64,000 bases of DNA. It comes from an uncultured Croceicoccus sp. (GTDB lineage Bacteria; Pseudomonadota; Alphaproteobacteria; Sphingomonadales; Sphingomonadaceae). The DNA lies in contig NZ_CANMCP010000001.1 of NCBI RefSeq assembly GCF_947496385.1, positions 1-64,000 on the forward strand. The letters are read 5' to 3'. The position numbers and the translations under genes are program-made. This document shows positions 1-24,871 of the stretch, piece by piece (the first letter of the stretch is position 1; each line of letters starts with the position of its first letter). The notes under the pieces were generated by a model, which saw only the letters and a list, made by a program, of their open reading frames with translations, was not told where the DNA came from and ran no database searches.

Positions 1-44
1 CGATCCTCTCCTTTGAGAGCTTTCTCAACCTCGCCGCAGTGCGC

Positions 45-374
45 CTATGGCTGAAATCTTATGTCAACGCGGCCTAGGTCGACCGCTTTATCAAGATTGG
101 AATCATTGGGGTCGATCTTGGCCCAGGCGGCCATTACTCCATGCTTAGGATTGTAGAACCGATTGACGATTTCATCCGAGGGAACGCTGCGAACCTTAGC
201 CTCAAGGCGCGGGTAGAAGTCTATCGGCCGATCCAAAAACGATAACACCGTCGCACGAAGCGCATGGAGGCCTGCGCCGGTCTTTACCTTTGACGGAGTG
301 ATCTCGGGCCCGCCGCTTTCATTGGTCGAAGAAGCGACTGAAGCATCGTCGGAAGTGGTGCCAGAGTCAGTCAA
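45..374 (-). CDS. Unknown 109-aa protein, last visible gene of the queC/dpdA operon
   Basis: I do not recognise this protein. The first 35 residues are rich in Ser, Thr, Asp and Gly and look disordered. The rest is a compact alpha/beta-like stretch containing '[19 protein letters not shown]'. There is no signal peptide or membrane segment. The start codon would be TTG (372-374) and overlaps the queC stop as TTGA, the same four-base coupling used through this operon, which argues that it is translated. It ends 44 bases from the window edge, so whether the operon continues is unknown. Its place at the end of a 7-deazaguanine DNA modification cluster suggests an accessory role, but this rests on context only. 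Confidence 0.55.
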
Positions 375-1081
375 GACCTGGTGCCTTCGCGGAAACTCTC
401 ATATCCTCGTGCTCGAAGCTCACAAGCAGGGCACGTTCCGCAGCCATAGCCCCATTCGTGGCGAACTGTGCGTTCGCCAAGGTAGCAGGTGTGGCTATGT
501 TCTGTGATCAGATCCAAGAGAAGGTCGCCGCCCAGATCTTGCGCCAATGCCCAGGTGCCAGCCTTGTCGATCCACATCAGGGGCGTGTGGATCACGCTTC
601 GACTGCCCATCCCTAGGTTCAACGTGACCTGTAGGGCTTTGAGTGTGTCGTCGCGGCAGTCAGGATATCCAGAGTAGTCAGTTTCGCACATGCCGCCAAT
701 CATGTGTCGAGCCTTGCGTCTGAATGCGAGCGCCGCCGCAAGAGTGAAGAACAACAAGTTGCGGCCAGGCACAAAGGTGTTCGGCAATCCGTCTTCGCGC
801 AGGGCGATCTCGGCGTCTCGGGTCAGTCCCGTCTCGCTGATCTGGCCGAGAACCGACAGATCGAGCGTATGGTCGGCTCCAAGCCTCTCTTTCCAGGTTG
901 GATTGATCTCAACAATCCGCGCGAGAAGCTCTGAACGACATTCCAGTTCGATCCGATGTCTCTGCCCGTAGTCGAACCCTACCGTCTCGACAGCGCTGAA
1001 TTTCTCAAGTGCCCAAGCAAGACAAGTTGCGGAATCCTGCCCGCCGGAGAAAAGGACGAGAGCCTTCTCGTCAGCAATCAT
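371..1081 (-). CDS. queC: 7-cyano-7-deazaguanine (preQ0) synthase QueC
   Basis: QueC converts 7-carboxy-7-deazaguanine to preQ0 with ATP and ammonia. The 236-aa protein has the PP-loop motif SGGQDS at residues 12-17 and a C-terminal cysteine cluster (HTC...CGTCPAC) matching the family's zinc site; the length is typical. It starts at ATG 1081, overlapping the queD stop. In a bacterium making queuosine, queF, queA, queG and tgt would also be needed. None is here, while dpdA lies four genes upstream, so preQ0 is more likely made for DNA modification. No folE is visible, so the first step (GTP cyclohydrolase I) must come from elsewhere in the genome. Confidence 0.95.
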
Positions 1082-1452
1082 GCAAGCTCTTCTTCGCCCC
1101 AGTAGGTGACCGCATCACTATTGCTGTCGCGGTAGACACTGACCTTCGAAAGCGCCGGGAACTCGGGCTTGAGCCTGTTCCAGATCCAACGGCACAGATT
1201 TTCCATGGTTGCCGGGCCAAGGTCGTTGATGTCGTCCAGAAAACGATGGTCGAGCGCGTCCCGAACGCTCTCGAGTTCTTTCTCCAGAATACCAACGTCG
1301 ACAATCATGCCGCTTACAGGGTCGGGCCTTCCACGTAGCGTGACCTCGCCGCGATAGCTATGACCATGGATCCTGCGGCTGGACTCGGTTTGGACGACCC
1401 GATCGAGTGTGTGAGCCGCGTCAAAGCGAAATTGTTTCGAGAGTTCGTACAT
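1078..1452 (-). CDS. queD: QueD-family 6-carboxy-tetrahydropterin synthase lacking the usual cysteine
   Basis: The family makes 6-carboxy-5,6,7,8-tetrahydropterin from dihydroneopterin triphosphate, the second step to preQ0. The 124-aa protein keeps the three zinc-binding histidines (H14 in FDAAH; H29 and H31 in HGH) and the catalytic Asp-His pair in LDHRFLDD. The nucleophilic cysteine of E. coli QueD lies four residues before HGH; here that residue is Ser25 (SSRRIHGH). The only cysteine in the protein is in the ENLCRWIW segment. I recall QueD-like proteins with this substitution from other alphaproteobacteria, so it may be a subfamily feature. I chose ATG 1452, which overlaps the queE stop as ATGA; the longer frame upstream of it overlaps queE. 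Confidence 0.9.
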
Positions 1453-2084
1453 CAGCGGATTCCGACTAGCTTGTGCGACTGGAGCGATAGGCGCCAGCGA
1501 GGATTTTCGAGGCAGTAATGGATCGTGTCGTCGAGGCATTGGTCGGCCTCGGCGCAATCCATTGGCTGCAAGAAGAAGTGCTCGAACTCGAGGTCTTCGA
1601 AGCGTTCAGGTCGCGCGCCAACCTGCGGGAATACGAGCTTCAGTTCGTTGCCCGACCGTAAGACCAGTTCGTTTTCCCCTTTAGGGCTAACGCAGATCCA
1701 ATCGATGCCTTCTGGGGCAGGACGCGTACCATTGGTCTCGACCCCGATCTCAAAACCGTGTCGATGAAGTGCATCTACCAAAGGCGCATCGACCTGCAGC
1801 AACGGTTCACCACCTGTGAGCACAACATAGCGACTCTCATTCGAGCCAGCCCATTCATCAGCGATTGTTTGTGCCAGCAATTCCGCGTCCGCGAAACGGC
1901 CCCCACCGGTCCCATCCACACCCACGAAGTCGGTGTCGCAAAAGGAGCATTGCGCGCTCGCGCGGTCCTGTTCGCGACCCGACCAAAGATTGCAGCCCGA
2001 GAAACGGCAGAAAACAGCCGTGCGCCCCGCATGAGCACCTTCACCCTGCAAGGTTTTGAATATCTCTTTGACCGCATAAGCCAT
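1452..2084 (-). CDS. queE: 7-carboxy-7-deazaguanine synthase QueE (radical SAM)
   Basis: QueE rearranges 6-carboxy-tetrahydropterin to 7-carboxy-7-deazaguanine using S-adenosylmethionine and a [4Fe-4S] cluster. The cluster motif has the QueE-specific spacing rather than CX3CX2C: C31, then 14 residues, C46, two residues, C49. The N-terminus has the family hallmark KTLQGEGAHAGR, and the glycine-rich TGGEPLLQ SAM-binding motif follows. At 210 aa the length is normal. It lies two bases after the DGQHR gene and overlaps queD, so the three que genes are co-translated in pathway order E-D-C. Confidence 0.95.
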   Translation of the reverse strand: MAYAVKEIFKTLQGEGAHAGRTAVFCRFSGCNLWSGREQDRASAQCSFCDTDFVGVDGTGGGRFADAELLAQTIADEWAGSNESRYVVLTGGEPLLQVDAPLVDALHRHGFEIGVETNGTRPAPEGIDWICVSPKGENELVLRSGNELKLVFPQVGARPERFEDLEFEHFFLQPMDCAEADQCLDDTIHYCLENPRWRLSLQSHKLVGIR

Positions 2085-2086
2085 GG

Positions 2087-3187
2087 CTATTCAGCCGCGT
2101 CTTCGAAGAGCGGGGCTGGTGCTGCTCGCCGCTTTTGTCTGAGATCGGCCTTGAGGATGCCAATGAGATAGTGCTTGAGCAGCGCAACGTCGCGATTGAC
2201 ATTTTGCAGCGAGTTCCAGCGCCGAACTTCGCCGCCGAGTTCCCAGTCGCCGGATGTCCACGCGGTCTTGTCCTTGAGGCATTCCATGCCTGCCTGGAAA
2301 TCATCGACCGATCGGGCATCAACCCTTTGGGCCAGCACTTCCATGACATCGCCCATCGCCTGGATACCGGCGCCGTGGAGTAACCGGGAAGTCTTTGGCT
2401 TGTGACCATGCCAAGCGTCCGGGAAAACCCGTTTCACAGCTTCAAAGAAATTCGAGACAAGCCGCACGCACTTGTCTTCGCCTTTGGGCCGACCAATCAG
2501 GTCGCGCATGATGCCGTTGGCGAGCGACTCCATGATGATCTTCTGCATCACGGTGTCTGCAATGATCCCTTCCGGGCAGGTGTGCTGGCGGATGTAGCCT
2601 TTGAGTGAGGTGTTCTCGAAGTTCAGCCGCGCGGTCAGATCTGCGGCAGTCGAGCGCCTGCTGAGCCGCGCCGGAAGGTCATCGACAGTAGGCAGCAGTT
2701 CATAAATCAGCGACTTGGGCAGCGGCTTGGTGTTGTTGATGAGCACGAACTGTCGACGCAGCTCTGCCTCGTCCTGGCAAATCAGGACTGACACGAAGAC
2801 CTGAAAATCACGCTCCAGCGTGCTCAAGGCAGAAAGCCGCTGTTGTCCATCGACAACCAGTCCTGGTGTCCCCTTGCTGACGTCGATCGTCAGGCGCGCC
2901 GATCCATCTCCCAAATCTTCAACGCCGACATGATCTGTAAAGGCCACGACGATCGGATTGGGAAGGACAGAGTTTGGCTTGATCAGGTAGTCCTGGATCT
3001 CCCGAATGTGAGCAGCAACCTGTGGCCGTTGGAAGCCGCTGAGTTCGCCCTGTGCATCGCGGCCAATGCGGTCAATCGATGCAAACTTGAGAATGTCGGA
3101 TGCCTTGGCCGCAAACACGAGGACCCGATGCTCGCTGCTCTGTTCCGCGGTCACGGCAAGGTATTGCATGGGCTTAGGTGAGGGCAC
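2087..3187 (-). CDS. DGQHR-domain protein 1 (DpdB/DndB-like)
   Basis: This 366-aa protein belongs to the DGQHR/DndB group by its DGQQR motif at residues 113-117, the upstream GFQRPQVAAHIREIQDYL segment, and the following FVLINNTKPLPK block. In Dpd systems DpdB works with DpdA to insert preQ0 into DNA; DndB has a related role in phosphorothioation systems. It is clearly paralogous to the gene at 4460-5578, sharing the order of motifs and a C-terminal SRLLHGAGIQAMGDVMEVL-like block, but has diverged. GTG 3187 overlaps dpdA by 14 bases; ATG 3169 (MQYLAVTAEQ) is an equally possible start just after the dpdA stop. Which paralogue is the working DpdB cannot be told from the sequence. Confidence 0.85.
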   Translation of the reverse strand: MPSPKPMQYLAVTAEQSSEHRVLVFAAKASDILKFASIDRIGRDAQGELSGFQRPQVAAHIREIQDYLIKPNSVLPNPIVVAFTDHVGVEDLGDGSARLTIDVSKGTPGLVVDGQQRLSALSTLERDFQVFVSVLICQDEAELRRQFVLINNTKPLPKSLIYELLPTVDDLPARLSRRSTAADLTARLNFENTSLKGYIRQHTCPEGIIADTVMQKIIMESLANGIMRDLIGRPKGEDKCVRLVSNFFEAVKRVFPDAWHGHKPKTSRLLHGAGIQAMGDVMEVLAQRVDARSVDDFQAGMECLKDKTAWTSGDWELGGEVRRWNSLQNVNRDVALLKHYLIGILKADLRQKRRAAPAPLFEDAAE

Positions 3188-4463
3188 GCTTCAAATCCAA
3201 TCTCTCAATATGATCCTTGTAGACCGCGAGATTGTGAATCCCGCGACGCTTGTTCCGATTGCTTCCCCGGAAAATGATCACATCGACAGCCGCATGTTCG
3301 CAGATTGAGCAACTGCACTGCTTCCATGGTTTGCTCTCGAGAGTAACGCGATAGCGCGTCGCCAGGCGAACCATGCTGGTCGCGTCCTTGCAGTCTTCAA
3401 ACGGTTTTTCTTCCACGAGTGGCGCGCTGTAGACGAGGACGTTCTGAAGTGTTTCCTCAATGCCGGCTTCGCCCTGATCGAAAGCGCGCAAGCTCGACAA
3501 TGCCGCGCTTTCCATGGTGACCAGATCTTCTGCTCGAAAGACACCGCGCTTGACCGTTCTCTGAAGGCGCGGGTTTTCAAGCGCCTGGGGTACGCGGATC
3601 GAAGTGAAATAACGCAGTCCCAGACCATCGCCGGGCAGGTAGTAATTCTGCTTCGCGTCCTTAAACGCGCGAATGAGCGGCGACGTCGTATCGAAGCTGG
3701 CGATGTCGTAACTGTGGAAGCTGTCGATGTCGTCTGCCTTCGCGAAACCAAGGATATGGAGGCGTGTCGCCGGAGGTACGACTTCTCGGATCGCCGCGAG
3801 GCACTGTTTGATCTCAGGTGATTTCAATGGGACCATGCCGCCGAGCGCGAGGTAATCATACCCCATCGCCACCAGCCTGCGCGCAGCTTCCGCCATGCTA
3901 TCGGGCGACCAGCCTTGAACAACGCCGAGGGGCTTGAACAGTGCGTCAATGGCTTTGGCTTCCCTCCGGAAAGCATCAGCATTCTCGAGCGTGATCTCGA
4001 AGCGATCCTTGGCGTCGTTCGATCCACCATCGAGGCCTTTTGCGGCAACATCGAAGTCAAAGATGATGTGGTCGACCGAGCAGCCATGCGTGAAGCCGCA
4101 ATCATCGTAGAACTCAGCGATCTCTGCAGGTGAGTAGGGCGGACGCTCCTCGTTGACATAGGTGAATGCGCCGCAGTCGCCGAAGATGTCGAGATGCGCG
4201 AATTCCGGTTTGTCGAGCCTCAGGAACTTGCGCGCGCCAACCAACTCGAAGCGCCGGGCTTGGCTGGCCGTGTATTTCCCTTTGACGCGATGGTCGCCGA
4301 CGATGCCTTTCGACACGAGCACCCCGTCGTAGGGCGCATAGCCAAGTATCTCGTGAGGATAGGCGTCGTCCCAATAGGGCTGCCGTTCCGCAGGACTGCG
4401 GTCGGCAATGAAGTCAAAGGCCGGATCGACATAATCCAGACTGTCGGCGAAGATGAACTTCAT
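3174..4463 (-). CDS. dpdA: DpdA-like 7-deazaguanine DNA transglycosylase (TGT superfamily)
   Basis: This 429-aa TGT-superfamily protein is predicted to exchange guanine in DNA for preQ0. Visible TGT-like elements are D96 in GDCGAF (counterpart of the general acid/base motif), SVDHI at 129-133, a GWSPDSMAEAARRLVAMGY helix with YLALGGM after it (about 184-210), D258 in SFDTTSP (candidate nucleophile), and a zinc site C383-x-C385-x2-C388 with H410. It differs from tRNA-guanine transglycosylases in lacking their usual PUA-like tail and in overall length. Its position between two DGQHR genes and upstream of queE-queD-queC matches the dpd architecture known from Salmonella Montevideo. It starts at ATG 4463, overlapping the upstream stop as ATGA. 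Confidence 0.9.
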   Translation of the reverse strand: MKFIFADSLDYVDPAFDFIADRSPAERQPYWDDAYPHEILGYAPYDGVLVSKGIVGDHRVKGKYTASQARRFELVGARKFLRLDKPEFAHLDIFGDCGAFTYVNEERPPYSPAEIAEFYDDCGFTHGCSVDHIIFDFDVAAKGLDGGSNDAKDRFEITLENADAFRREAKAIDALFKPLGVVQGWSPDSMAEAARRLVAMGYDYLALGGMVPLKSPEIKQCLAAIREVVPPATRLHILGFAKADDIDSFHSYDIASFDTTSPLIRAFKDAKQNYYLPGDGLGLRYFTSIRVPQALENPRLQRTVKRGVFRAEDLVTMESAALSSLRAFDQGEAGIEETLQNVLVYSAPLVEEKPFEDCKDATSMVRLATRYRVTLESKPWKQCSCSICEHAAVDVIIFRGSNRNKRRGIHNLAVYKDHIERLDLKRALT

Positions 4464-5578
4464 GAGGTTCCCCTCGCCAGGTCGCGTTCCAGGTGCATCA
4501 GATGGTCAGTGAGCTTTGAGATGTGTTGGGACGTTGACTGCACTTCATTCCACATCAGGTTGAGGGCATCCCAACGCCCTTCGGTCCAGTGGCAATGCTT
4601 CGCCAACTTCTTCAGGATGGTACGCACCGCGGCCCCGCGGTCTTCTGCGCTGTCGACCCGCAACATGATCTGATCCATCAGGGCGCCCATCGCCCGGATG
4701 CCAGCGCTATGCATAAGGCGACTTTGGGTTGGCGGCTTGCCCCAGGCATCCGGGAATGTGTCGCGCACAGCGCTCCAGTAGAGAACGAGCGTTTCATACA
4801 TTGCATTTGCGTCAGTGCCGTCGCCATTGCGTTTGAATTGGCCGAGAGCCCCCGACGCTGACCTTAGGCTTGTACGCATCGCTTCGATCAAGGCGGAGTC
4901 CGCAACGACACCGGTTCCGGAGCGCGCATTGGATTCCCGCTTGATCAGATTGTGAAATGGCGAGTCCTTATGCTGATTGAGCAATTCGCAGAGCGCGCTT
5001 GGCAGCTTGCGCGCAGCCAGATCCCTCGGAAGGAGGGCGCTCACTTCTGGCAGCAGTTCATCGATCAGACGTTTGGGCAGTGGCCGCGCCTTGTTGACGA
5101 GAATGAACTGTTCTCGTTGAGCCTCGATCTCATCCGAGACGAAGCCGACGACTGGTACGGCGATCGATTGATCCTTTGCTTGCGCCAAGGCCAGCGATCG
5201 TTGCTGGCCATCGACGATCCAGGCCGCCCGGCGGCCTGCAGGGTAAACAGGAATGGTCAGTGTGCCAGCGTCACCGATCTCGCAGATGTTTCCGGGCTTG
5301 CGCCCGCGTGCCGACGCGAATTCCACTTCCTCCGAAAGAGCCAGGATGATCGCGTTTGGAAAGAGGACTTTCCCGCTATCGAGAAACTGCGTGATCGCCG
5401 AAACGTGCGCCTTGATTTCGCTGCGCTGGAAGCCCTTGAGTTCCTGTTCTTCGCGCCGCAGGCGGGCGATATCGGCGATACGCATGATGTCCGCGCCTTC
5501 GAGGAAGAAGACGAAAACCGCGGTTCCGTCGCCTTGCTCGCTGCGAACAGCACGAATGGCCAATGTCTCTTTAGCCAT
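4460..5578 (-). CDS. DGQHR-domain protein 2 (DpdB/DndB-like)
   Basis: This 372-aa protein is the second DGQHR/DndB-family member in the operon. It has DGQQR at residues 123-127, GFQRSEIKAHVSAITQFL upstream, and QFILVNKARPLPKRLIDELLP after it, matching the first paralogue block for block. The C-terminal half carries SRLMHSAGIRAMGALMDQI. The family is linked to DNA phosphorothioation (DndB) and 7-deazaguanine insertion (DpdB, proposed to use ATP). It starts at ATG 5578, overlapping the end of the upstream DUF6884-like gene by eight bases, and overlaps dpdA by four. Direct adjacency to dpdA makes it the better DpdB candidate, though this is inference. Confidence 0.87.
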   Translation of the reverse strand: MAKETLAIRAVRSEQGDGTAVFVFFLEGADIMRIADIARLRREEQELKGFQRSEIKAHVSAITQFLDSGKVLFPNAIILALSEEVEFASARGRKPGNICEIGDAGTLTIPVYPAGRRAAWIVDGQQRSLALAQAKDQSIAVPVVGFVSDEIEAQREQFILVNKARPLPKRLIDELLPEVSALLPRDLAARKLPSALCELLNQHKDSPFHNLIKRESNARSGTGVVADSALIEAMRTSLRSASGALGQFKRNGDGTDANAMYETLVLYWSAVRDTFPDAWGKPPTQSRLMHSAGIRAMGALMDQIMLRVDSAEDRGAAVRTILKKLAKHCHWTEGRWDALNLMWNEVQSTSQHISKLTDHLMHLERDLARGTS

Positions 5579-6524
5579 GGCTCACCTCCGACCGTATCTC
5601 TCTTGCGAGCGATGCAAAGCGCCCCTGTTCGCAGGCAATATCGAGTTCATCCCGAAAGAGCCTGAGCAACTTGGTCGTGCTCCCATTGGTTTCGAGCCAA
5701 TGGCGGCGCATCAATTGCCTGATCTCGTCGTCGGAAAGCCGGCGGCGGGAAAATACTGGAGGTTCAGCCCAGTCCTTTGCCGCCCTTTCGACGGCGTCGG
5801 CATGTTGGCTGGCTGAGCGGTCATCATCAGAGGAAAGGATGCTGTCGACGAAGTGCAGTAGGGCGCGGGCAGCGAAATCGCTACGGGTGCCGCGGATTGG
5901 GCTGTCTGGGCCGTCAAGCCGGTCGTCATATGGCATCAGGAAAGGCTGCAATTGTACTGGAATTCGCTCTCTAGGTGTGCGCGTGAACAATCGCAGATTG
6001 CCTCGACGTCCTTCCGGAAGCGTCAGAAACTCCTCGAGCATCATCTCGATATATCCATCGGACAATGCGGCCATGATCAGGCCGGTGCGGCAATCTGCCA
6101 CATCGGCTAGCTTCATCGTGTGCGGAGACACTTGGCCGAGTTCTTTCCACCAATTCGCTCTACTGAATCCCTCGGTGATAGGGGCGGCGATGCTATCGTC
6201 TGCCCCGCTGAGTACGGTGCAAGCATAGGATGGTACCTGCGTTCGTGCTCCGACCAGGCCAACGCCCGCTGACACGATCAGCAGTTCCGCGCCGACCTTC
6301 TCGGCGGCAACCATAGAGTCCCTGAAGGACCTGCCGCCATAGAGCGAACTCGCAGGATAGGTCTGACAGGCCTCGCCTAGCCGTTCGCCCCACTCTGCCG
6401 CGACCTGGGTGATACCACCCTTCTTAAGATCACCCGCGTGCAGCCGGGAAGCCACCGGCTTTCGCTTCCTGTTTGTGCACGTGGTGATAACGATAGCCAA
6501 GATCTTTTCCTGCCGGTTGAGCAT
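5571..6524 (-). CDS. DUF6884/YaaA-like protein, candidate DpdC
   Basis: This is the first gene of the modification operon. From ATG 6524 it encodes about 317 aa; a TTG at 6578 would add 18 residues. The N-terminal half resembles the DUF6884/YaaA group: a hydrophobic strand followed by CTNRKR (about 16-21), then LLIVSAGVGLV (81-91) and VPSYACTV. In Dpd clusters DpdC, also YaaA-related, converts the preQ0 base in DNA to the 2'-deoxy-7-amido-7-deazaguanosine form. The C-terminal ~70 residues are helical and charged and are not recognised. The role as DpdC is inferred from fold similarity plus operon position and has not been shown by a full alignment. Confidence 0.7.
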   Translation of the reverse strand: MLNRQEKILAIVITTCTNRKRKPVASRLHAGDLKKGGITQVAAEWGERLGEACQTYPASSLYGGRSFRDSMVAAEKVGAELLIVSAGVGLVGARTQVPSYACTVLSGADDSIAAPITEGFSRANWWKELGQVSPHTMKLADVADCRTGLIMAALSDGYIEMMLEEFLTLPEGRRGNLRLFTRTPRERIPVQLQPFLMPYDDRLDGPDSPIRGTRSDFAARALLHFVDSILSSDDDRSASQHADAVERAAKDWAEPPVFSRRRLSDDEIRQLMRRHWLETNGSTTKLLRLFRDELDIACEQGRFASLAREIRSEVSHG

Positions 6525-6624
6525 TTTTGATAGCAAGGGCGGAACAAAACGGCTACATTTAATGTGCCAATCGCGCAAAGTTTTTGTGTAAATAAATGCG
6601 CCAAAATCGAGGAGATGATCAGGC
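6525..6624 (+). promoter_or_regulatory. Divergent promoter region between the modification operon and the 189-aa gene
   Basis: This 100-base gap separates two divergent transcription units. It is noticeably A/T-rich at 6570-6600 compared with its surroundings, as expected for overlapping promoters. I could not pick confident -35/-10 boxes on either strand. A GGAG at 6611-6614 precedes the GTG start at 6625. No clear operator palindrome was seen. Confidence 0.4.
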
Positions 6625-7194
6625 GTGATTACGATTGCCGAGTTGCTCAGGCGTTCGGATGACGCACTAGCTGGCTTGGCGCAGCGCCATGCCGACCTCT
6701 CGCGCTATGCCTATACGGTCGACCAGCTCCATCGGACAAATGTCGACGAGGACCTTGCCTACCAACGAGCCTTCAACGGCCTCTATGGGGTCCGCAGAAA
6801 CGCCGACTGGCGAGGCCGTTTCTACCGGATTTTTGAACAGCAGAAGTCCAACTCGGACATCCAGTTTGGGGAGATTGTTCGGTCAATTTTCGAGAGCACC
6901 GGGAGAGTCGAAGCGTCATTCGCCTCGAAGCTGATCGCGACCGTGGATCCGACCAGAGCGGTCTATGATTCGATCGTGCGGAGCAATTTGGGACTGCGGA
7001 CCCGCACTGGCTCCGGGCTCGAAAAGATTGCCGACGCTGTTGATGATTACCAAGCCATCCAGGCTCACCTCGATGCCCTGATACGTGCCGATCGCTTTCC
7101 GCTCCTGCGTCAGCGCTTCGACCTAGAATTTCCCCAATTCAAGAAATTCACTGATCTTAAGGTGCTAGATCTTTTGATCTGGCAGATCCGCTAA
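6625..7194 (+). CDS. Unknown 189-aa protein divergent from the dpdA operon
   Basis: I cannot name this protein's family. It is soluble and mostly helical, with an apparent conserved core of NGLYGVRRNADWR (about 49-61), VEASFASKLIATVDP (about 90-104) and YDSIVRSNLGLRT. I have a vague memory of similar proteins with an ASF-SKL-AT motif of unknown function, but cannot support that from the sequence. The start is GTG 6625 with GGAG ten bases upstream; an ATG at 6615 is out of frame. It is transcribed away from the modification operon, and its stop codon sits inside the inverted repeat that follows. It could be a regulator, effector or partner of the modification system, which is untested. Confidence 0.6.
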   Translation: MITIAELLRRSDDALAGLAQRHADLSRYAYTVDQLHRTNVDEDLAYQRAFNGLYGVRRNADWRGRFYRIFEQQKSNSDIQFGEIVRSIFESTGRVEASFASKLIATVDPTRAVYDSIVRSNLGLRTRTGSGLEKIADAVDDYQAIQAHLDALIRADRFPLLRQRFDLEFPQFKKFTDLKVLDLLIWQIR

Positions 7195-7255
7195 TGTCTC
7201 GAAATCGCGACATTAACGGCAAAAAGGGGCATAAGGTCTCAATTGTGCGACATTA
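7192..7255. repeat. Inverted and direct repeats of GCGACATTA after the 189-aa gene
   Basis: TAATGTC (7192-7198) and GACATTA (7209-7215) form a perfect 7-bp inverted repeat with a 10-base loop that includes the stop codon of the preceding gene. The longer half-site GCGACATTA (7207-7215) recurs in the same orientation at 7247-7255, exactly 40 bases later. There is no T-run, so a simple intrinsic terminator is unlikely. The spacing before the small gene at 7283 would fit a protein-binding site. Confidence 0.5.
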
Positions 7256-7282
7256 TGGGGCGGGCTTACTGAGGAATTCACA

Positions 7283-7486
7283 ATGACGAAGCAATGGCCC
7301 GATCAGGACGAGCACCAATGGGAGGGCATCAAGGAAGTCGACCGTGCCATCTCCGAAAACCGGCGTATGGAATATCGCTGGAAGAAGGCCCTGGCCGATC
7401 CTTGGGAACGACGCGGCCTTTGGCTACTCGCGTTGGTCGTCATCGCATTCGCTGTGTTCGTCATCCTGCAGGATTTCGTGCTGTAG
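7283..7486 (+). CDS. Small single-pass membrane protein (67 aa)
   Basis: The first 42 residues are charged and hydrophilic (several Glu, Arg, Trp). A single hydrophobic segment (GLWLLALVVIAFAVFVILQ, about residues 45-63) ends almost at the C-terminus, so this is probably a tail-anchored or N-in membrane protein. A GAGG at 7271-7274 sits eight bases before ATG 7283. The gene ends exactly where traG ends on the opposite strand (7486/7487), so the two are tail to tail with no gap. Family unknown. It could be an entry-exclusion or modulator protein of the transfer system, but only its position suggests this. Confidence 0.55.
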   Translation: MTKQWPDQDEHQWEGIKEVDRAISENRRMEYRWKKALADPWERRGLWLLALVVIAFAVFVILQDFVL

Positions 7487-10198
7487 CTATCTATTGCTCC
7501 ATTCCTTGACGTCGTCCGCAGCTTCTTCACTCGCGCCCGTGGCGCCTTCCGTCTGGCGATCAAGATAAGATCGCACGGTTCCGATCCTGCCACGACCCTG
7601 TCGGCGCACCCGCTCGACCTCGTCTGAAATCGCTGTTCGATCGGGGCCATCGGGCATAGAGGGACCACCCGCAGAGCCCACTGCCCCTCTTGCGCGTACC
7701 TGCTCAACACTCCCTATCCCGGGGCGGCTGACAGGAGCGAAGTCAGGCAGCGAAAGGTCGGCTTCGATGTCGTCTTGCAGGCGATCAGCATAGCTTTCGA
7801 CAAACCGCGATTGCAGTTGTTGGCCGCGCGCGCTCATCTGGAACTCGATGTCGTCGAAGCGTACCGGCCCGTAATAGTCGCGATTGGCTTCGATCTCGGC
7901 CATGCCCCATTCGCGATAAGCCTGGCTCAGGTTTAGCGTGCCTGCGGCACTGTTGGCCTCGTACCAGCTGGCCTGGTTCTCGAGGCGGCTGGCCATCTCT
8001 TCGGCCCGACGCGCCTCTCGCGTATAGCTCTCGGCTTCGGTCAGCGATCGGTTGAGACCCGACGAGCTGGTCGATACCTGTGATACCGAACTCGAGCTCG
8101 TCTCGCGCAGGAAGCCTTCACGCGTGTTCGACCAGTTGCGACTGTCGGAAAGCTGACGCAGCGTTCCCATGATCCTGCCACGGTCTTCCGAGGCGATCCC
8201 GATATCGCTGTCGGTCCACGACTGATTTCGGCCTCCGCGGACGCCCGCCTGCGCGTTTAGTACTCCGCCTTCGGCCTTTGCTCCGGCTCCTGCTTCGCCG
8301 TTAAGGAACCAAGAAATAGTAATGTCGTCTGACGCGCGCCGGGAAAGGCCAAACTGCTGCTGAAGCGTCCTCGAGGCATTGTCGACTTCGCTGAATGCCG
8401 TGCCGATGCTGTCGTTCGTGCCGACGCCGCTGACTGTGTCGGAGCTCTGACCCTGGCTGTAGGCGTTGCGGATCTCGCTGAACCGGGTGAGCGCAGAGCT
8501 CGTCGATTGCTGGGCGAGGTTGGCATAGGTCTCGCTCTGCGTCCGGCTCTGGCTCGCCATCGTTCCGAGGCGGCCGGTGAAGTCCTGCCCCAGTGTCGGC
8601 GTGAACGGATAGCTTGAATTCGGGACAGCAGCGAACTCTCCATCGGGGAAGCTGGTGGTCTGCGTGCCGCTGTCGCTGAAACCACGCGTCTGTGCCGCGC
8701 CATAGGCAATGTTGGGGGCAAGATTGCCCTGCGCAAATTGGCGGGAAAACACTGTCGAATTGTCGATGTTCGAATTGCCGAGCGAGACATTGCCGGTGCT
8801 CGCTTCGCGCGAGGCTTCCTCGGCTGCGTTCTGGCTCGGGTTGAGATAGCTCGTTGCTTGGCCCGAGATCGCCAGCGCACCGCGCGCCACCCCGCCGGCA
8901 AGGAACGGGATCGAGGCGACAAGATAACCCGCCAAGATGCCGATATCGCTGTTGACGTCGCTCATGCCGGCAAAGGTCGCGAGGCTGAGGCCCGTACTGC
9001 CGCCAGCGGCGGCGACATCGCCTGCACCTTTAAACATCAGGATCATGTGCAGGATGACGAAGAGCGGTCCCCACGCTGCAAGGTAGAAGAAGCCGTTGAC
9101 GTAACCTCTCAATGCAATGGGTCCGGTCCGCGGCATCAGGAACAGCGGAAACAGGACAGGGAACAGCGCGTAGAACACCACTGTCAGCACGACATTGAGG
9201 ATTGGGACCCATTTCATCGCGTTGTGCGCGATCGAGGAATAGGTCCGCTCGGTTTGAATGTCGGCGCGGGTCTGCGCGAAGACGTCAATGCTGCCGGTGC
9301 CGCTCGCCCCTGCAAAGCCGTGCATGGCCTGGTTCATGGCATTGATCGTCAGCACCTGGCGGAAAATGTCGCTCGCGCTGCGCGAGATGCCGGTGAGATA
9401 CTGATAGGCAATCGGGAGGTCGGCCATGAGCTTGGCCTTGGCGAGTGCTTCGGTTTGTCGCGGATAGAGCTGGCGTCCCGCGACAAGCGTCATCTCGTCG
9501 ATAAGGCTCGCCCACTGCCCCGACAGCGCGGTGTAGGCTTCGCGGCAGGTGATGATCGAGGCCGTCACGCTGTCGTCGGCCTGCCGGGTCAGGAATTTCT
9601 GCGCGCGCGCCGCGCTGCCTGGTGCGATCGTCGCCCAGATATCGTCGCTCTCGGACAGCTCCTTCATCGAGTAGCGGCCGAGAAGCAGATCGTAGAACAC
9701 GCATTGCCGGACATGCTCGTCGAAGTTCGCAGCAAACTCCGGATCGGAAATGCGCAGGCTGCGCGTCGATTCAAGCAGCCGCGCGCCATAGATCATGCCG
9801 TTCTTCGAGTAGTTCAGGTCGTCCGGCAGCCCGAAGACGAGCTCGGCCGAGCGGGTCAGATAGTCCCCCGCCTGGCTGGTGAAGCTTGCCATCAGGGCCA
9901 GTCCGAGCGGGACATTGGCCACCGTTGCCGGTGCAAGGCTGGGATTGACCCGGTCGGTCACATGGACGTCCATGCGCGGCACCATCAGGCACATGTAAAT
10001 GAGCGTCGCACCGAGGAACCAGTTGAGCCATGCGCGCCAGTCCTGGTTGAACGCGACCACGATGACCGCAAGCACCATCCCCATCACCAGCGCGACCTGA
10101 ATGAGGCTCTTGTAGCCGCCGGCACCGGTCCAGGCGGCAACGGCGTTGAGGACATTGACGATGTACTCGCCGCCGCCGACCGTGAAAATCTCGACCAT
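7487..10198 (-). CDS. traG: F-type conjugal transfer protein TraG
   Basis: TraG of F-type systems is a large inner-membrane protein whose N-terminal part is needed for pilus assembly and whose C-terminal part acts in mating-pair stabilisation. The 903-aa protein has several N-terminal hydrophobic segments (for example about 20-60 and 330-470) followed by a long hydrophilic, Ser/Gln/Asn-rich C-terminal domain with charged helices, the family's usual layout. It starts at ATG 10198, twelve bases after traH, and is the last gene of the tra operon. It is close in length to F TraG (about 940 aa). Confidence 0.9.
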   Translation of the reverse strand: MVEIFTVGGGEYIVNVLNAVAAWTGAGGYKSLIQVALVMGMVLAVIVVAFNQDWRAWLNWFLGATLIYMCLMVPRMDVHVTDRVNPSLAPATVANVPLGLALMASFTSQAGDYLTRSAELVFGLPDDLNYSKNGMIYGARLLESTRSLRISDPEFAANFDEHVRQCVFYDLLLGRYSMKELSESDDIWATIAPGSAARAQKFLTRQADDSVTASIITCREAYTALSGQWASLIDEMTLVAGRQLYPRQTEALAKAKLMADLPIAYQYLTGISRSASDIFRQVLTINAMNQAMHGFAGASGTGSIDVFAQTRADIQTERTYSSIAHNAMKWVPILNVVLTVVFYALFPVLFPLFLMPRTGPIALRGYVNGFFYLAAWGPLFVILHMILMFKGAGDVAAAGGSTGLSLATFAGMSDVNSDIGILAGYLVASIPFLAGGVARGALAISGQATSYLNPSQNAAEEASREASTGNVSLGNSNIDNSTVFSRQFAQGNLAPNIAYGAAQTRGFSDSGTQTTSFPDGEFAAVPNSSYPFTPTLGQDFTGRLGTMASQSRTQSETYANLAQQSTSSALTRFSEIRNAYSQGQSSDTVSGVGTNDSIGTAFSEVDNASRTLQQQFGLSRRASDDITISWFLNGEAGAGAKAEGGVLNAQAGVRGGRNQSWTDSDIGIASEDRGRIMGTLRQLSDSRNWSNTREGFLRETSSSSVSQVSTSSSGLNRSLTEAESYTREARRAEEMASRLENQASWYEANSAAGTLNLSQAYREWGMAEIEANRDYYGPVRFDDIEFQMSARGQQLQSRFVESYADRLQDDIEADLSLPDFAPVSRPGIGSVEQVRARGAVGSAGGPSMPDGPDRTAISDEVERVRRQGRGRIGTVRSYLDRQTEGATGASEEAADDVKEWSNR

Positions 10199-10210
10199 AC
10201 TGCCTGACCC

Positions 10211-11647
10211 TTATGGAACGATGGAGCGGGACTGCATCCCGCGCGACCAGTCGAGCGCGGCGGCCATCGACGGCGACATCGAGGCAGCGAGCATGTTCTC
10301 GATCATCGCGGTCTTCTCGATGATCTGCATGATCGCGGAGACCCGCGCCTGTCCGGTCGCTTGCCTCTGGGCGAGGCTCGATCGCACCTCGGCGACCTGA
10401 GCGCGCCAGATAGCGAGCTTGGCTTCATCGGCCGCGATGAAACTCGCCATCGAGCGTCCGGCCTCGGCGGTGATGCGTTCGAGGATGGCATAGAGAAGAT
10501 CGATGCTGGCGATCTCGGCCAGCGTGTCGCGGTCGTCGGTGGCCATCCCACGTCCATAGGCGGCCTGCACGGTAAGGATTTTGTAGAGCGGCACCGATGC
10601 CACCTGGAGCAATTCCTTCTCCTCGTCGCCGATCGCGGTGTCGCTGCGGATGGCCTCGACCATGCTGCCGATGAGCCGGGCAACGCGCGGCCGGATGGCC
10701 TTTGCGCTCGAGAGGCTCATCTGCTGGAAGGTGGGGTTGAGGCACTGGTCGGGCTCGTCGCACTGGAACACCCGCACCGACTGGCCTTGCGTCCCGTCGA
10801 GCAGCGCGGTGACGAGCGTTGAAGAGGCATCGCCCGCGAAAGGCACGAATTTGCCGGGCTCGTCGTCGCGGGGCGGCACGTAGATCACCGTGCCGATGAG
10901 CGTCATCGCATACTCGGCAAGATCGCGGTCGAAGGTGCCACCGGGGTTGAAGAAGGCGCTCTGCTTGAGGACATGCCAGGTGTAGTTGCGCGGCACACCG
11001 GGATTGACGTCGGCATAGTCGGCGCCGGCACCCTCGTTGGTCGACGCACGCTGACCGCGCGTACCGCAACCATGCTTGGCAGCGGCATAGTCGGTGAAGA
11101 TGCCTTCGGAATTGCCGATCGCTTCGCAGATTGCCTTGTCGGCGAGATCGCCCTTGGGCCAGACGCCGCCGACCAGCCCCTGCGCCATCTCGCAGGAGTT
11201 GATCGAGAGATTGTTCATGAGCTGCGCCTTCTGGCTGAACTCCTGCATGATCTTCGAGCACTCGGGGCAGACGGTATCAATCGCCAGACTAAAGGCGAAC
11301 CCCACCGCATTGTTCGCGACGGCCTTCAAGAGCGCGACCATCTCGCTCGCGTTGATGAAGGAGAAAGACCCGGCGAAGATATCGATACCGCCGCAACCAG
11401 CGCGGGCACGCGGCAGCTGGAGATTGGCGATGTTGGTCGTCTTTTGCGGGAAGCGCGTCCAGACATTTCCGAGGCTGTAATAGCCCGCCGACTGTCCTTC
11501 GAACGCGCTCGGCCCGGTGACATTGGCCGCAGCGCCCATGTCGTCCATGAAACGGTCCATGCTATCACCGACGTTTGCGGCGACGGGGGACGCGACCATG
11601 CTGGCGGCAGCTATGGTGAGCGCCGCATTGCGGATGCTAGTAATCAT
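10211..11647 (-). CDS. traH: F-type conjugal transfer protein TraH
   Basis: TraH is a periplasmic/outer-membrane associated pilus assembly protein. The 478-aa product has a signal peptide (first about 24 residues, ending SPVAANVG), the typical N-terminal MDDMGAAANVTGPSAF segment, YYSLGNVWTRFP, and paired cysteines (CGGID; VCPECSK) consistent with disulfide-dependent folding. Its start at ATG 11647 overlaps traF by eleven bases. Length and motif order fit the family (F TraH about 458 aa). Confidence 0.92.
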   Translation of the reverse strand: MITSIRNAALTIAAASMVASPVAANVGDSMDRFMDDMGAAANVTGPSAFEGQSAGYYSLGNVWTRFPQKTTNIANLQLPRARAGCGGIDIFAGSFSFINASEMVALLKAVANNAVGFAFSLAIDTVCPECSKIMQEFSQKAQLMNNLSINSCEMAQGLVGGVWPKGDLADKAICEAIGNSEGIFTDYAAAKHGCGTRGQRASTNEGAGADYADVNPGVPRNYTWHVLKQSAFFNPGGTFDRDLAEYAMTLIGTVIYVPPRDDEPGKFVPFAGDASSTLVTALLDGTQGQSVRVFQCDEPDQCLNPTFQQMSLSSAKAIRPRVARLIGSMVEAIRSDTAIGDEEKELLQVASVPLYKILTVQAAYGRGMATDDRDTLAEIASIDLLYAILERITAEAGRSMASFIAADEAKLAIWRAQVAEVRSSLAQRQATGQARVSAIMQIIEKTAMIENMLAASMSPSMAAALDWSRGMQSRSIVP

Positions 11648-12467
11648 GTCCGGCTTCCTTCGAGGTGAGGAGGTAGATGCGATCCTGCAGCTCGTCGGCC
11701 GAGAGCACGCCGTATCCGATCGGGATCGGGCGCCTGGCCACGCTGTCCCACAGCACGAGCGCCGGGGTGATGCCGGGTTCGAGCCCCATGCGCGGCCGCT
11801 GACCGCTTTCGACCTTGTAGTCGGGGAAGTGACGGGACGGTCCGCCGTCGGTCGAGATCGCCCGGACAGTGATATGCCAGCGGTCCGCCACCGAGCGCAC
11901 GATCGGGCTCATCACTTCGCAGGCGCCGCAGGTCTGGGCGAAGAAGTAGAACAGTCCATAGCGTTCTGAGAGCCTGGCCATCACCGCATCGCGGTCGGCA
12001 GCGCGCGCGTCCTGCCATTGCTTCTTGGCGAGCGCGCCGACCGGTCGTTCGAGCGTGTAGTCGAGCTCGGGATCCTGCCAGATCGCGCGCTGCCAGACAT
12101 CGGAGAACATCGACGCCCGGTCGAGCTGGGCACGCTGGAAGCGGATATAGGCGGTGACGTTTTCCGGCGTCGGATAGAGAATCGCGCGCGCCTTGAGTTC
12201 GCGCAGTTCCCCCGTGACCGCGTCGAGTTCTTGCGTGGCGGTTACCTGGGCCGGTGGCTGCGCCATCTGCGGGTCGGCTTTCGGCTCCGGCCTGACGCAG
12301 TAGAACCAGTAGCCGAGCCTGCGCTGCTCGCAGTAGAGGCTGTCTGCCGACGCGGCTGGCTCTGCCTGGCGCGCGTCCTGGGCAACTGCCCAAACGGGAA
12401 GCAGTGCAGCGAGACACATGGCCAATACTGTGAGGGACAGCATCGGCAGTGATTGGCGGCGCGTCAT
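11637..12467 (-). CDS. traF: TraF, thioredoxin-fold pilus assembly protein
   Basis: This 276-aa protein is exported by a signal peptide (MTRRQS, a hydrophobic stretch, then WAVAQDA). It has the F-type TraF thioredoxin-like domain near the C-terminus with an intact CGAC active site (C180-C183, in FFAQTCGACEVM). The F-plasmid TraF lacks this CXXC, so this version may be redox-active and help fold cysteine-rich TraN, TraU and TraH together with DsbC. I used ATG 12467, which overlaps the traN stop as ATGA; a longer frame reaching 12791 lies wholly within traN and lacks a signal peptide at its start. Confidence 0.9.
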   Translation of the reverse strand: MTRRQSLPMLSLTVLAMCLAALLPVWAVAQDARQAEPAASADSLYCEQRRLGYWFYCVRPEPKADPQMAQPPAQVTATQELDAVTGELRELKARAILYPTPENVTAYIRFQRAQLDRASMFSDVWQRAIWQDPELDYTLERPVGALAKKQWQDARAADRDAVMARLSERYGLFYFFAQTCGACEVMSPIVRSVADRWHITVRAISTDGGPSRHFPDYKVESGQRPRMGLEPGITPALVLWDSVARRPIPIGYGVLSADELQDRIYLLTSKEAGHDY

Positions 12468-14197
12468 TGACCACTCCTTGCGTAATAGTCTTCGATTTTC
12501 TGCTGGATGAGGATGCTGGTCTCGAGCTCGTCGGGGAGCCGCGCAGCCTCGGTGAACTCGGCATAGACCTCGCTGAAATCCATCTGGCTGAGGTCGAGCC
12601 GGGCGAACTCGTCGAGAGTGAAACCCTCGCACTGTTCTTCCTTGGGCTTGCCCCACGGCTTGGGCAGCTGGCGGCGGCCCTGTTCCTGCAGGATTCGCGA
12701 GAGCTTGCTCTCGAAGCAGCAGTAGACCTTCTTCTTGGTCAGGCAGACGCCGAGGAACTTGTCCGAACAATAGGTCCCCACATAAGCGCAAAGCCCTTGC
12801 GCATCGCGTTCGTGGAGCAGCACTTCCTCGCGGCTGCAGCCGAGCGCGACCAGCAGGCTGATCCCGGGGATGAGCGGGAAGCCCTTGCCCTTGCAGCAGT
12901 TGAGCACCCCAAAAACCTTGGAGGAGCAGGTGTTGCGCGTGCCGCGGAACAGCGTCAGCGTTTCAGGATCGAACTGGCCGCGGGCCTCCTCCATCGCGTG
13001 GAGCGCGGTGACGGCATCCTTGAACTCGTCGTTCGCGGTGCGCTCGATCGTCTCGCAGCTGCCGTCGATGCAATAGACATCGCCGTCGCAGACATATTGC
13101 GTGCCTCCGCTATCGCCGGCTGGAAGCGGGCACTCGTAAACGCGCTCACTGGTCGAGCATGGCGTGTCGTCGGTGAGGCAATCCTCGCGCAGGAAACGGC
13201 AGCTCCCGTTCGCTTCGAGTTCGCTGCAGTCGTTCCCGGCTGTCCGGCGGGCGCAGCTGTAGCTGCGCTGCCAGGCCCAGCAGCTTTGCGTGACCTCGAC
13301 ACCGTCAATGATACGGGTCTGTGGAGTGCTGTCGGTGCAGGTCTCGGCATCAAGCGTGCATTCGCCATTGTCGAGGAAGGACGAGCACTGGCTCTCGTTG
13401 CGCGTCGTGGTGACGACGTTCTCGCTGGTCACGGTGTAGGGGGTGGCACCCGGCACCGGCTCGCTGCAGCTGACCAGGTCGACGCGCAGCGTTCCGTAGC
13501 AGCCCCAGTAATAGCCCGAATAATAGTCGTAGCCGCACGGGATATCCCAGGACTGGACTACGCGGCACTGCGGTCCCTGGTAGTGATTGCAGGCATAGGG
13601 GCTCGTCGGATCGACCCCGGTCCCGGCGATGCAATAGTAGCCGTAGACATCACGGGCCTCGACCCTGGTATCGAGCGTGACCTGGCAGGTGCCTGTCTCG
13701 CGTGTTGCCGTAACGCCGGTGTTGCAGGTGGCGGTATAGGTGCCCGCACTTGCCGATCCCGGCGGCAGCGGCACGCAGGCACCTTGGTTGCCGGTAACCG
13801 TCATGCCGCTGGTGTAATCGAGCGGGGTCTCGTTGATGGTCCGGCTTCGCGCGAGCATATCCGCGATTTCGTCCGGGTCGAACTGCGCGCGCGAATCCAT
13901 GCTGTCGCGAATGGTCCGCATCGGCGTGCTGGTCGTCGCGGCACTGCGTCCGCGGGCCTCGATCTGGTCGGGATCACGCGCAAGACCCTGCAGGTCGCGC
14001 GTAGCCTGCGGATCGAAATTGGGAACGCGCGCCGCGTCAGGATTGGTCGTTGCGGCATCGCGCGCCTCGCCCAGCAGCTCGGTGGCAAAGTCCTTCCCGT
14101 CAGCTCTTGCCGCATCGCGGGTCTGAGCGTGAATGGAAGCCGCGCCTGTGAGGGCGACGAGTGCGGCAAGAAGATTGGCGAGGGTTCTGCCGGTCAT
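12464..14197 (-). CDS. traN: TraN, cysteine-rich mating-pair stabilisation protein
   Basis: TraN is the outer-membrane adhesin that stabilises mating pairs. The product (about 577 aa) begins with a signal peptide (MTGRTLANLLAALVALTGAA) ending near HAQ. It is extremely cysteine-rich in the middle and C-terminal region (for example CNHYQGPQC, CDGDVYCIDGSC, CCKGKG, CGYDYYSGYYWGCYG), as expected for this family. The chosen ATG 14197 overlaps trbC by four bases. Many disulfides fit the presence of DsbC and a CXXC-containing TraF in the same operon. Confidence 0.9.
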   Translation of the reverse strand: MTGRTLANLLAALVALTGAASIHAQTRDAARADGKDFATELLGEARDAATTNPDAARVPNFDPQATRDLQGLARDPDQIEARGRSAATTSTPMRTIRDSMDSRAQFDPDEIADMLARSRTINETPLDYTSGMTVTGNQGACVPLPPGSASAGTYTATCNTGVTATRETGTCQVTLDTRVEARDVYGYYCIAGTGVDPTSPYACNHYQGPQCRVVQSWDIPCGYDYYSGYYWGCYGTLRVDLVSCSEPVPGATPYTVTSENVVTTTRNESQCSSFLDNGECTLDAETCTDSTPQTRIIDGVEVTQSCWAWQRSYSCARRTAGNDCSELEANGSCRFLREDCLTDDTPCSTSERVYECPLPAGDSGGTQYVCDGDVYCIDGSCETIERTANDEFKDAVTALHAMEEARGQFDPETLTLFRGTRNTCSSKVFGVLNCCKGKGFPLIPGISLLVALGCSREEVLLHERDAQGLCAYVGTYCSDKFLGVCLTKKKVYCCFESKLSRILQEQGRRQLPKPWGKPKEEQCEGFTLDEFARLDLSQMDFSEVYAEFTEAARLPDELETSILIQQKIEDYYARSGQ

Positions 14198-14946
14198 GGC
14201 CGTTCCTCCCTGGAGAGCTGGCGTAAATGGAGGCGGGCAAGCTCGGCGCCCGGACCCTTGCCAGATGCAAAGGTCTCGAGGACTTCGCCCACGCTGATGT
14301 TGCCGGCGATGCGGTCGTGCGGCGGCACCTCGCTGGTGCAATCGAACCCGTCGCAGGGACTGAACTCGGCGCTCAGCATGACGAAGCTCGGTGCGGCCTC
14401 GATGTTGAAGGCGCGGAACAGCCTTGGATCGATGCCCAGCGAACCGGCCGCGTCGCGGCTGCTCCAGATAGCGGCGAGCCGCTTCTTGAACGCCTCGCTG
14501 TTTCCTTGCGGGAAACCGCGCAGCACGGTGACGCCTCCCGCCCTGGTCATGTCGTGGACCAGTGCCTTCAGCGCCTCGGGCGGCATAGACAGGCTGGCAA
14601 AGGCAATGAAGCGTGGAGTTCCCCCGAGCGATGCCTTCTCGGCGGCGGCTTGCCCCGCGATCATCGCGTCGAAGTCGAGGACGGCGTCGGTCTCGATTGC
14701 CTCGATGGTGTCCGCATAGGCTGCGCGATTGGCCTGCGCTTGCGCCTGGATAGCCTGTGCATCCTCGGTCAGTGCCTCGGCGCGCTGGCGGACATTGGTA
14801 CTGAGCGCCTGCGCATCATCGGCGTGTTCGGCCGCGCGCTCGCGGATCGCTTCGAGGTCGATGCCTTCGGGCGCGCTCTGGGCGAGAGCGAGGCCACCGA
14901 GGGTGACGGCAAGGCCGACGGGCAAAAGGAGGAGATGTTTGTTCAT
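14194..14946 (-). CDS. trbC: TrbC, F-type pilus assembly protein
   Basis: The 250-aa product has a signal peptide (MNKHLLLLPVGLAVTLGGLA), a charged helical/coiled-coil stretch (about 25-95) and a C-terminal F-type TrbC domain with FIAFASLSMPPEALKAL and TRAGGVTVLRGFPQG. TrbC is a periplasmic protein needed for pilus assembly in F. It starts at ATG 14946, overlapping traU by four bases; the much longer open frame upstream to 15738 runs antiparallel-phase through traU and is rejected. Confidence 0.88.
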   Translation of the reverse strand: MNKHLLLLPVGLAVTLGGLALAQSAPEGIDLEAIRERAAEHADDAQALSTNVRQRAEALTEDAQAIQAQAQANRAAYADTIEAIETDAVLDFDAMIAGQAAAEKASLGGTPRFIAFASLSMPPEALKALVHDMTRAGGVTVLRGFPQGNSEAFKKRLAAIWSSRDAAGSLGIDPRLFRAFNIEAAPSFVMLSAEFSPCDGFDCTSEVPPHDRIAGNISVGEVLETFASGKGPGAELARLHLRQLSREERP

Positions 14947-17109: not shown

Positions 17110-17492
17110 TGACCGCCTCCCTGCTCAAGCTGGCGGGCGATCCGTGCGCGCAGTTCATCCGTAGCATCGGGGGCATCGCCCGCGAGCACCGCTTCGCCGA
17201 CCAACACCACGCGGCCACCGGTCCCCATTTCTGCAACGGCGCGCTCGGACGCCTGGAGGAAGGCAAGCACGCGCGCCTGGCTGGCTTCGGGATCCTGTGC
17301 CCCGCGCGCTTCGGCATCGACGAAACCCGCGATGGTCTCGGCAAGCCGGACAGTGACGATCTGCTTGCGCGGTTCGGACAGTTCGCGGCTGACCCAGGCC
17401 GCCCAGAGTAGTGCGACCACGAGCGCGAGCACACCGAGAATTCTCAGCAAAAGCGGGCGATTGAGCGATGGTAATCTGCGCGTGTCAGTCAC
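17106..17492 (-). CDS. trbI: TrbI, F-type conjugal transfer membrane protein
   Basis: This small (128 aa) inner-membrane protein has one N-terminal transmembrane segment (LLLRILGVLALVVALLWAAW) followed by a short periplasmic domain with KQIVTVRLAETIAGFVDAEA, the pattern of F TrbI (128 aa). TrbI influences pilus outgrowth and retraction. It lies between traC and traW as in F. GTG 17492 overlaps the upstream gene by eight bases. Confidence 0.85.
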   Translation of the reverse strand: MTDTRRLPSLNRPLLLRILGVLALVVALLWAAWVSRELSEPRKQIVTVRLAETIAGFVDAEARGAQDPEASQARVLAFLQASERAVAEMGTGGRVVLVGEAVLAGDAPDATDELRARIARQLEQGGGQ

Positions 17493-24537: not shown

Positions 24538-24549
24538 GGGTCGCCTCCC

Positions 24550-24837: not shown

Positions 24838-24871
24838 GATGCCGCCCTCCTGTCGTGACCGGATCCGCTGA

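Follow-up and report, generated by a model that had tools for sequence, protein, structure and literature searches.

The first 64,000 nucleotides of contig C1 (NZ_CANMCP010000001.1; assembly GCF_947496385.1 of an uncultured Croceicoccus sp.), here called the window, carry near their left edge a seven-gene operon of the Dpd type. It very probably supplies the modification part of a Dpd restriction-modification system carried by a conjugative element, the restriction part, a variant one, being on another contig of the same genome, C14. The original prediction had seen a modification-only version of such a system. That appearance is best explained as an effect of the contig edge; C14 contains the DNA that follows the operon in close relatives.

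All seven genes are on the minus strand, between 6524 and 371, each overlapping the next or separated from it by 2 bases, in the order dpdC-dpdB-dpdA-dpdB-queE-queD-queC (Table 1). Profile searches (Pfam, NCBIfam and PADLOC) bear out the predicted overlapping operon with a DpdA-like relative of tRNA-guanine transglycosylase (TGT), two DGQHR proteins, which are DpdB proteins sharing 33% identity, and QueE, QueD and QueC. A further protein, predicted as 'DUF6884/YaaA-like', is present but is better named DpdC, because its DUF6884 match lies below the Pfam cut-off and its PADLOC match to DpdC reaches 5.8e-106. The profile scores thus cover DpdA, DpdB (two copies) and DpdC of the modification module, and QueC and QueE of the 7-cyano-7-deazaguanine (preQ0) supply exceed their cut-offs, with QueD recognized through Pfam only. 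The start of queD was set at 1452 by choice, the longest open reading frame (ORF) beginning at 1557, and a longer ORF for dpdC begins at 6578. In a full-length match, residues 1-419 of DpdA align with the solved chain 7ui4, a 'DNA-guanine transglycosylase' (6.6e-88). Residues D96, D258, C383, C385, C388 and H410, which we take to have a functional role, are invariant in all six aligned sequences. Neither DpdC nor DpdB1 matched a solved structure. On these scores the operon is of the Dpd type, with a predicted product of 7-deazaguanine-modified DNA.

The contig edge and the putative restriction genes on C14

Base 1 of the window is base 1 of C1, one of 55 contigs. Three loci at 99% identity to that of the window came from a DpdA search of public genomes: L012 (Altererythrobacter sp. 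CC-YST694), L013 (an uncultured Erythrobacter) and L014 (a 9-kb contig of a Ponticaulis metagenome-assembled genome). In L012 and L013 the tra genes, the divergent gene y189 and the operon are all as in the window, and the DNA extends past the window's break. When bases 14000-21287 of L012 were searched against the window's own genome (G000), query positions 1-391 matched C1:74-464 and positions 1906-7288 matched C14:78-5460, both at 99%. Over longer distances, C14:78-17093 is 99.6% identical to the genome of L013 (G398) and C14:78-17109 is 98.4% identical to that of L012 (G397).

Repeats are found on both sides of the break. C11 (left end) and C14 (right end) each carry a copy of the 76 bases that open C1, and C21 has one at 83%; the 77 bases that open C14 are found again at C16. 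In frame 3 the end of C1 resembles what is presumably the C-terminus of a transposase. Both junctions of the break fall at CTAG, which also occurs at these two places in the L013 genome. A 109-amino acid ORF at the edge matches, over 106 codons and at 92-93%, a 342-codon gene of L012 and L013 that has a PADLOC match to PycTM (8.8e-9). The simplest reading is that a single insertion sequence lies between C1 and C14 and that the remainder of the 342-codon gene, together with a HAD gene, has been lost. Such an insertion, parting the modification and restriction halves, would account for both the assembly break and the missing ~1.5 kb. A protein with the PycTM-like match (8.8e-9) and a HAD hydrolase also form a pair beside dpd operons at L124:895-2687 and many other loci.

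A variant set of putative restriction genes does lie on C14, and so probably past the left edge: it comprises a RecB-like nuclease and relatives of DpdF, G, H, I and J. The predicted absence of restriction genes therefore holds inside the window but not beyond it. In the C14 DpdJ, the N-terminal part is a superfamily 1 (SF1) helicase (AAA_11/AAA_12; IGHMBP2-like) that precedes the usual DEAD and Helicase_C domains. The RecB-like protein scores 36.9 bits with the TM0106 RecB-like nuclease family and 18.3 bits with PDDEXK_1, both below cut-off, and its profile had no match among solved structures. Its residues C18, D122, D139xK141, Q153xxxY157, C239, C242 and C248 are invariant in 12 of 12 aligned sequences, two of which are near-copies. 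We take these residues to be a PD-(D/E)XK site and an iron-sulfur cluster, as in Cas4, AddB and Dna2. Elsewhere on C14, an S24-type regulator adjoins the Dpd restriction genes (L120:16474-18061), and the same interval encodes an HNH protein like phosphorothioate-dependent restriction enzymes (NF045808, 81 bits, cut-off 180).

In Dpd systems QueD, QueE and QueC make preQ0, DpdA and DpdB insert it in place of guanine in DNA, and DpdC converts it to the amido form. In this genome the three Que proteins would likewise supply preQ0, DpdA with the DpdB proteins would write the mark, and DpdC would make the amido form. The C14 proteins would sense, unwind and cut incoming unmarked DNA, the RecB-like nuclease and the SF1 helicase acting as a Dna2-like pair in place of DpdK, the phospholipase D nuclease of the standard system.

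Several points weigh against this reading. C1 and C14 are unjoined in the assembly, their probable adjacency being drawn from relatives, and part of the locus is missing, as ~1.5 kb of L012 between the two matches was found nowhere in a search of G000. All of the relatives score below the NCBIfam equivalog cut-offs (DpdF 469 against 550 bits, DpdG 53 against 80, DpdH 290 against 450, DpdI 25 against 150 and DpdJ 338 against 800), and the DpdI relative had no PADLOC match at all. Profile searches of the whole genome gave no match to DpdK or DpdD and, for DpdE, matches to the helicase core only (best 29.3 bits, cut-off 500). The models for these three proteins do recognize proteins of an Agrobacterium vitis plasmid, and the control genomes of the DpdD search were silent. 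Both the presence of 7-deazaguanine in this DNA and restriction by the C14 arm are predictions, made from the genes.

Alternatively, the restriction half of this strain may be out of action or set apart from the operon: an insertion sequence would have removed part of the locus, and C14 may lie elsewhere, so that the mark is written and little is cut. The repeats at both contig ends and the absence of 1.5 kb from the assembly are in keeping with this. However, the six C14 genes (RecB-like, J, I, H, G and F) are ORFs of the same lengths as their counterparts in G398, and the missing 342-codon and HAD genes are probably not essential, since they are also absent beside many other dpd operons. We consider this explanation very improbable.

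The modification-only reading, in which the mark shields the conjugating element from the restriction enzymes of the recipient, is suggested by the window itself, where no restriction gene is found and a tra operon adjoins the dpd genes. The available text of PMC11888242 describes dpd islands without a restriction operon, and at a Kordiimonas locus (L065) none of the three kinds of arm defined below is near the operon, with neither DpdH nor the U nuclease elsewhere in the genome. This reading was nevertheless rejected as very improbable here, given the DpdF-J relatives in the same genome, on DNA that directly follows the operon in L012 and L013. With these genes on C14, the operon can be explained without assuming that the mark serves only to protect transferred DNA, although it may bring a side benefit against other restriction enzymes. 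Contig edges should be checked before a dpd island is called restriction-free. A tRNA queuosine operon without DNA modification, suggested by the TGT-superfamily enzyme beside QueC, QueD and QueE, can practically be dismissed: DpdA scores 554 bits with its own profile against 25.3 with Pfam TGT (cut-off 26.3), DpdB and DpdC are present, and the genome has a separate strong tRNA Tgt on C6 (518 bits) and a second QueC on C9 (235 bits).

Known and candidate restriction arms of other dpd loci

The genes beside other dpd operons were compared with reference arms by blastp and tblastn. The census takes in 80 genome loci, the best of 184 confirmed ones, and five plasmid loci, each spanning at most 10 kb, often less, on either side of dpdA, with more distant arms out of view. 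Three kinds of arm were distinguished: standard (DpdE, D, K or J), R (as in this genome) and U (a helicase-nuclease pair). Among the best 80 loci the arm is standard in 44, R in 21 and U in nine; one (L050) has both standard and U arms, and five show none in view (L014, L057, L065, L068 and L084, with L014 and L068 being short contigs). The plasmid loci comprise one standard, two R and two without an arm; one of the plasmids, L008, showed no arm in a search limited to its own record. The RecB-like gene or the long DpdJ identifies 16 of the 21 R loci, while L031, L043, L059, L076 and L078 were assigned solely by F, G, H or I genes nearest to R references. Genes specific to the standard arm and genes specific to R co-occur in none of the 85 loci, but L050 indicates that one locus can hold more than one kind of arm. 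Of the 80 loci, 78 have both dpdB genes and 79 have dpdC. In the window's family, DpdA exceeds the cut-off in nine of 397 sampled genomes, and an arm is present in every one of the nine: G193, G386, G314 and G101 have the standard kind, G000, G349 and G069 (equated with the L012 genome by agreement of contig and coordinates) have R, and G199 and G038 have U. Two Acetobacter loci (L010 and L057) have only dpdC-dpdA, with no dpdB, que gene or arm to be seen nearby, and this arrangement is conserved in two species.

The U arm was recognized from two gene families common to loci without D-K genes. They encode a UvrD/AddA-like helicase of ~800 amino acids and a PD-(D/E)XK nuclease of ~390 amino acids that ends in CxxCxxxxxC. 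Examples occur at L053:3641-7373, L087:15128-18842, L062:3409-6971 and related loci, in each case with a dpd modification operon lacking DpdD-K. L087 comes from Sphingomonas kyeonggiensis. The pair is a candidate two-gene restriction arm, judging from its sequence and position. Both genes match strongly in seven of the nine U loci and in G199 and G038. The divergent locus L063 has a helicase at 29% and a nuclease placed by family clustering only, and L072 was called from a 99-amino acid fragment at a contig edge, with only a weak nuclease match in its genome.

DpdH was sought in 16 genomes or plasmid records presumed to lack a standard arm. Twelve had no match, L062 had a marginal one (2e-4), and L051, L053 and L084 had a strong match elsewhere in the genome; the positive controls L012 and L042 were detected. 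In the genomes of L051, L053 and L084 a standard arm could therefore act in trans. L053 and L050 belong to one Ensifer genome. The pattern at the Kordiimonas locus L065 may be that of a truly modification-only operon or of a still different system.

Arms appear to have been exchanged between operons. In a quick DpdA tree with long branches (91 rows), the 83 rows labelled standard, R or U need 20 label changes. When only well-supported branches are taken, the forced changes number 12 for standard, 11 for R and five for U, although the labels do cluster relative to shuffles. L022 (R) and L023 (standard) share 91.9% DNA identity over 7949-14067, the dpdC-queC operon, and no other match longer than 150 bases in 21 kb. 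In a second pair, L075 (R) and L046 (standard), identity is 90.8% from dpdC through the next transporter gene (7844-14679), with one short 74% match besides. For L032 (R) and the standard-arm genome G314, the operon is 82% identical and one further 1.5-kb stretch is held in common. The modification cassette is thus the constant part, since near-identical operons carry different arms and DNA identity ends at the operon edges.

On balance, these patterns incline us to regard Dpd as a modular platform, in which an exchangeable 6-kb writing cassette has, through repeated swaps, become joined to no fewer than three different restriction arms: the standard DpdD-K arm, the R arm with a Dna2-like pair replacing DpdD, E and K, and the two-gene U arm. 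The window's modification operon would be one such cassette, joined in other genomes to different arms. If this is true, different nuclease machines read one and the same mark, and some seemingly restriction-free islands restrict through the U arm. Should the arms function as proposed, near-identical cassettes with different arms, such as L022 and L023, would allow a direct test of which proteins detect that the 7-deazaguanine mark is absent, a point not known to have been settled, and the two-gene arm would be far easier to study than the standard one.

The conjugative element and neighbouring genes

The predicted neighbouring conjugation operon and mobile element stood up to profile searches, which identified a TraG_N protein (7487-10198), TraC (17862-20405) and a TrbI-type protein (21840-23156). 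The remaining tra genes are tentatively named from their order and size. The operons belong to a block of ~56 kb shared with G397 and G398, which consists of window positions 74-26252, a bridge, and C14 from 78 to ~28996. The window part is 93.8-95.6% identical to the two genomes, against 98.4-99.6% for the restriction part and 92.9-93.3% for the relaxase part. C14 also encodes a TrwC-type relaxase, a TraD-type coupling protein and an ArdC-type antirestriction protein. A tRNA search found none on the window or C14.

Table 1. Features of the window and of contig C14
Feature	Position	Strand	Support or remark
Repeat at contig edge, read as an insertion-sequence end	1..76	+	Recurs at other contig ends
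Start of 342-codon gene (length in L012/L013), cut at contig edge	45..374	-	Bases 74-374 homologous
Window part of shared mobile block	74..26252		Remainder, including restriction genes, on G000:C14:78-28996
queC, 7-cyano-7-deazaguanine synthase	371..1081	-	Pfam QueC 1.6e-67; TIGR00364 200.6 bits (cut-off 150.3)
queD, 6-carboxytetrahydropterin synthase	1078..1452	-	Pfam PTPS 4.2e-32; NCBIfam QueD 78 bits (below cut-off 89)
queE, 7-carboxy-7-deazaguanine synthase	1452..2084	-	TIGR04508 355 bits (cut-off 240)
dpdB2, DGQHR protein, second DpdB	2087..3187	-	NF041060 379 bits (cut-off 300)
dpdA, DNA-guanine transglycosylase	3174..4463	-	NF041059 554 bits (cut-off 200)
dpdB1, DGQHR protein, first DpdB	4460..5578	-	NF041060 460 bits (cut-off 300)
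dpdC	5571..6524	-	PADLOC DpdC 5.8e-106
y189, protein divergent from operon	6625..7194	+	Beside dpd genes in 7 of 85 loci scored
F-type conjugation operon	7487..24537	-	TraG, TraC and TrbI-type by profile; other names tentative
RecB-like protein, 762 amino acids	C14:167-2455		Weak family matches
DpdJ, 2105 amino acids	C14:2452-8769		PADLOC DpdJ 2629 bits over whole length
DpdI relative	C14:8766-9464	Opposite to DpdJ	NCBIfam 24.9 bits; no PADLOC match
DpdH relative	C14:9482-12718	Opposite to DpdJ	PADLOC 1099 bits
DpdG relative	C14:12718-13611	Opposite to DpdJ	PADLOC 33 bits
DpdF relative	C14:13621-16098	Opposite to DpdJ	PADLOC 812 bits

The protein y189 has relatives in L011, L012, L013, L014, L020, L026 and L078, next to operons with standard and with R arms. 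It matches no Pfam, NCBIfam or PADLOC family, and a search of solved structures gave four matches with E values of 0.37 or worse. To the right of the tra operon, window positions 31502-53247 hold metal and anion cargo: a SLAC1 channel, a molybdopterin oxidoreductase, CopB, a multicopper oxidase, a P-type ATPase, ArsB and a sulfate permease. On C14, L121:7963-12674 encodes the ArdC-type antirestriction protein, a WYL protein and a SMODS nucleotidyltransferase near an AAA ATPase, the last two forming a possible CBASS-like locus. Far from the window's group, F-type tra genes lie beside dpdC in Methylomonas sp. LW13 (L044:1-8000), and one tra gene lies beside dpdC on a Methylococcaceae contig (L034:1-2300).

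Comparison with known systems

The Dpd system of Salmonella Montevideo comprises synthesis genes dpdA-C and restriction genes dpdD-K, as given in the available portions of PMC11888242 and PMC12839542. The present system shares with it DpdA, DpdB, DpdC, the preQ0 synthesis genes and relatives of DpdF, G, H, I and J. It differs in having two DpdB genes, a RecB-like nuclease and an SF1 helicase fused to DpdJ, in its location on a conjugative element, and in that DpdD, DpdE and DpdK were not found in the genome.

As seen in the window, dpdABC without adjoining standard D-K genes resembles the restriction-less islands that the consulted part of PMC11888242 reports, in which dpdC occurs for example in Agrobacterium, Aliarcobacter and Archangium. 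Unlike those islands, an arm exists here, and nine related loci without the standard genes hold the helicase-nuclease pair (two of them weakly). The same text counts 801 additional dpdB copies and places preQ0 genes in about 27% of islands, so two DpdB genes, queEDC within the operon and missing D-K genes are not new.

The accessible text of PMC12458937 mentions many uncharacterized Dpd-like classes and describes BRIGADE, in which 7-deazaguanine genes occur with ARMADA-like, YprA-family helicases, usually two, and a PD-(D/E)xK nuclease sometimes replaces the phospholipase D nuclease. The two systems would have in common 7-deazaguanine genes with YprA-family helicases and the use of a PD-(D/E)xK nuclease. 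BRIGADE is reported there only from halophilic archaea, whereas the nearest named relatives here are alphaproteobacteria. The long DpdJ is already modelled in PADLOC. In searches of open papers, seen in part, the RecB-like partner and R arm, the U pair and arm swapping were not met; within that search the new part is arm swapping with the R and U arms, Dpd systems and restriction-less islands being already in print.

Alphaproteobacterial dpd loci on plasmids, for instance in Caulobacter sp. S6 and Skermanella rosea, share the gene order dpdC-B-A-B-queE-D-C and have the RecB-like and long DpdJ genes. The idea that the dpd neighbours in Caulobacter sp. S6 form an unrelated system was dropped, as blastp found among them relatives of A. 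vitis DpdF, G, H, I and J (DpdI at E 0.001 only) and the RecB-like gene. The RecB-like protein and long DpdJ of C14 are 51% and 49% identical to their Caulobacter counterparts. Unlike the present genes, those of the plasmid loci lie on different replicons, and their products are annotated there only as hypothetical, helicase-related or AAA-domain proteins in the tables consulted.

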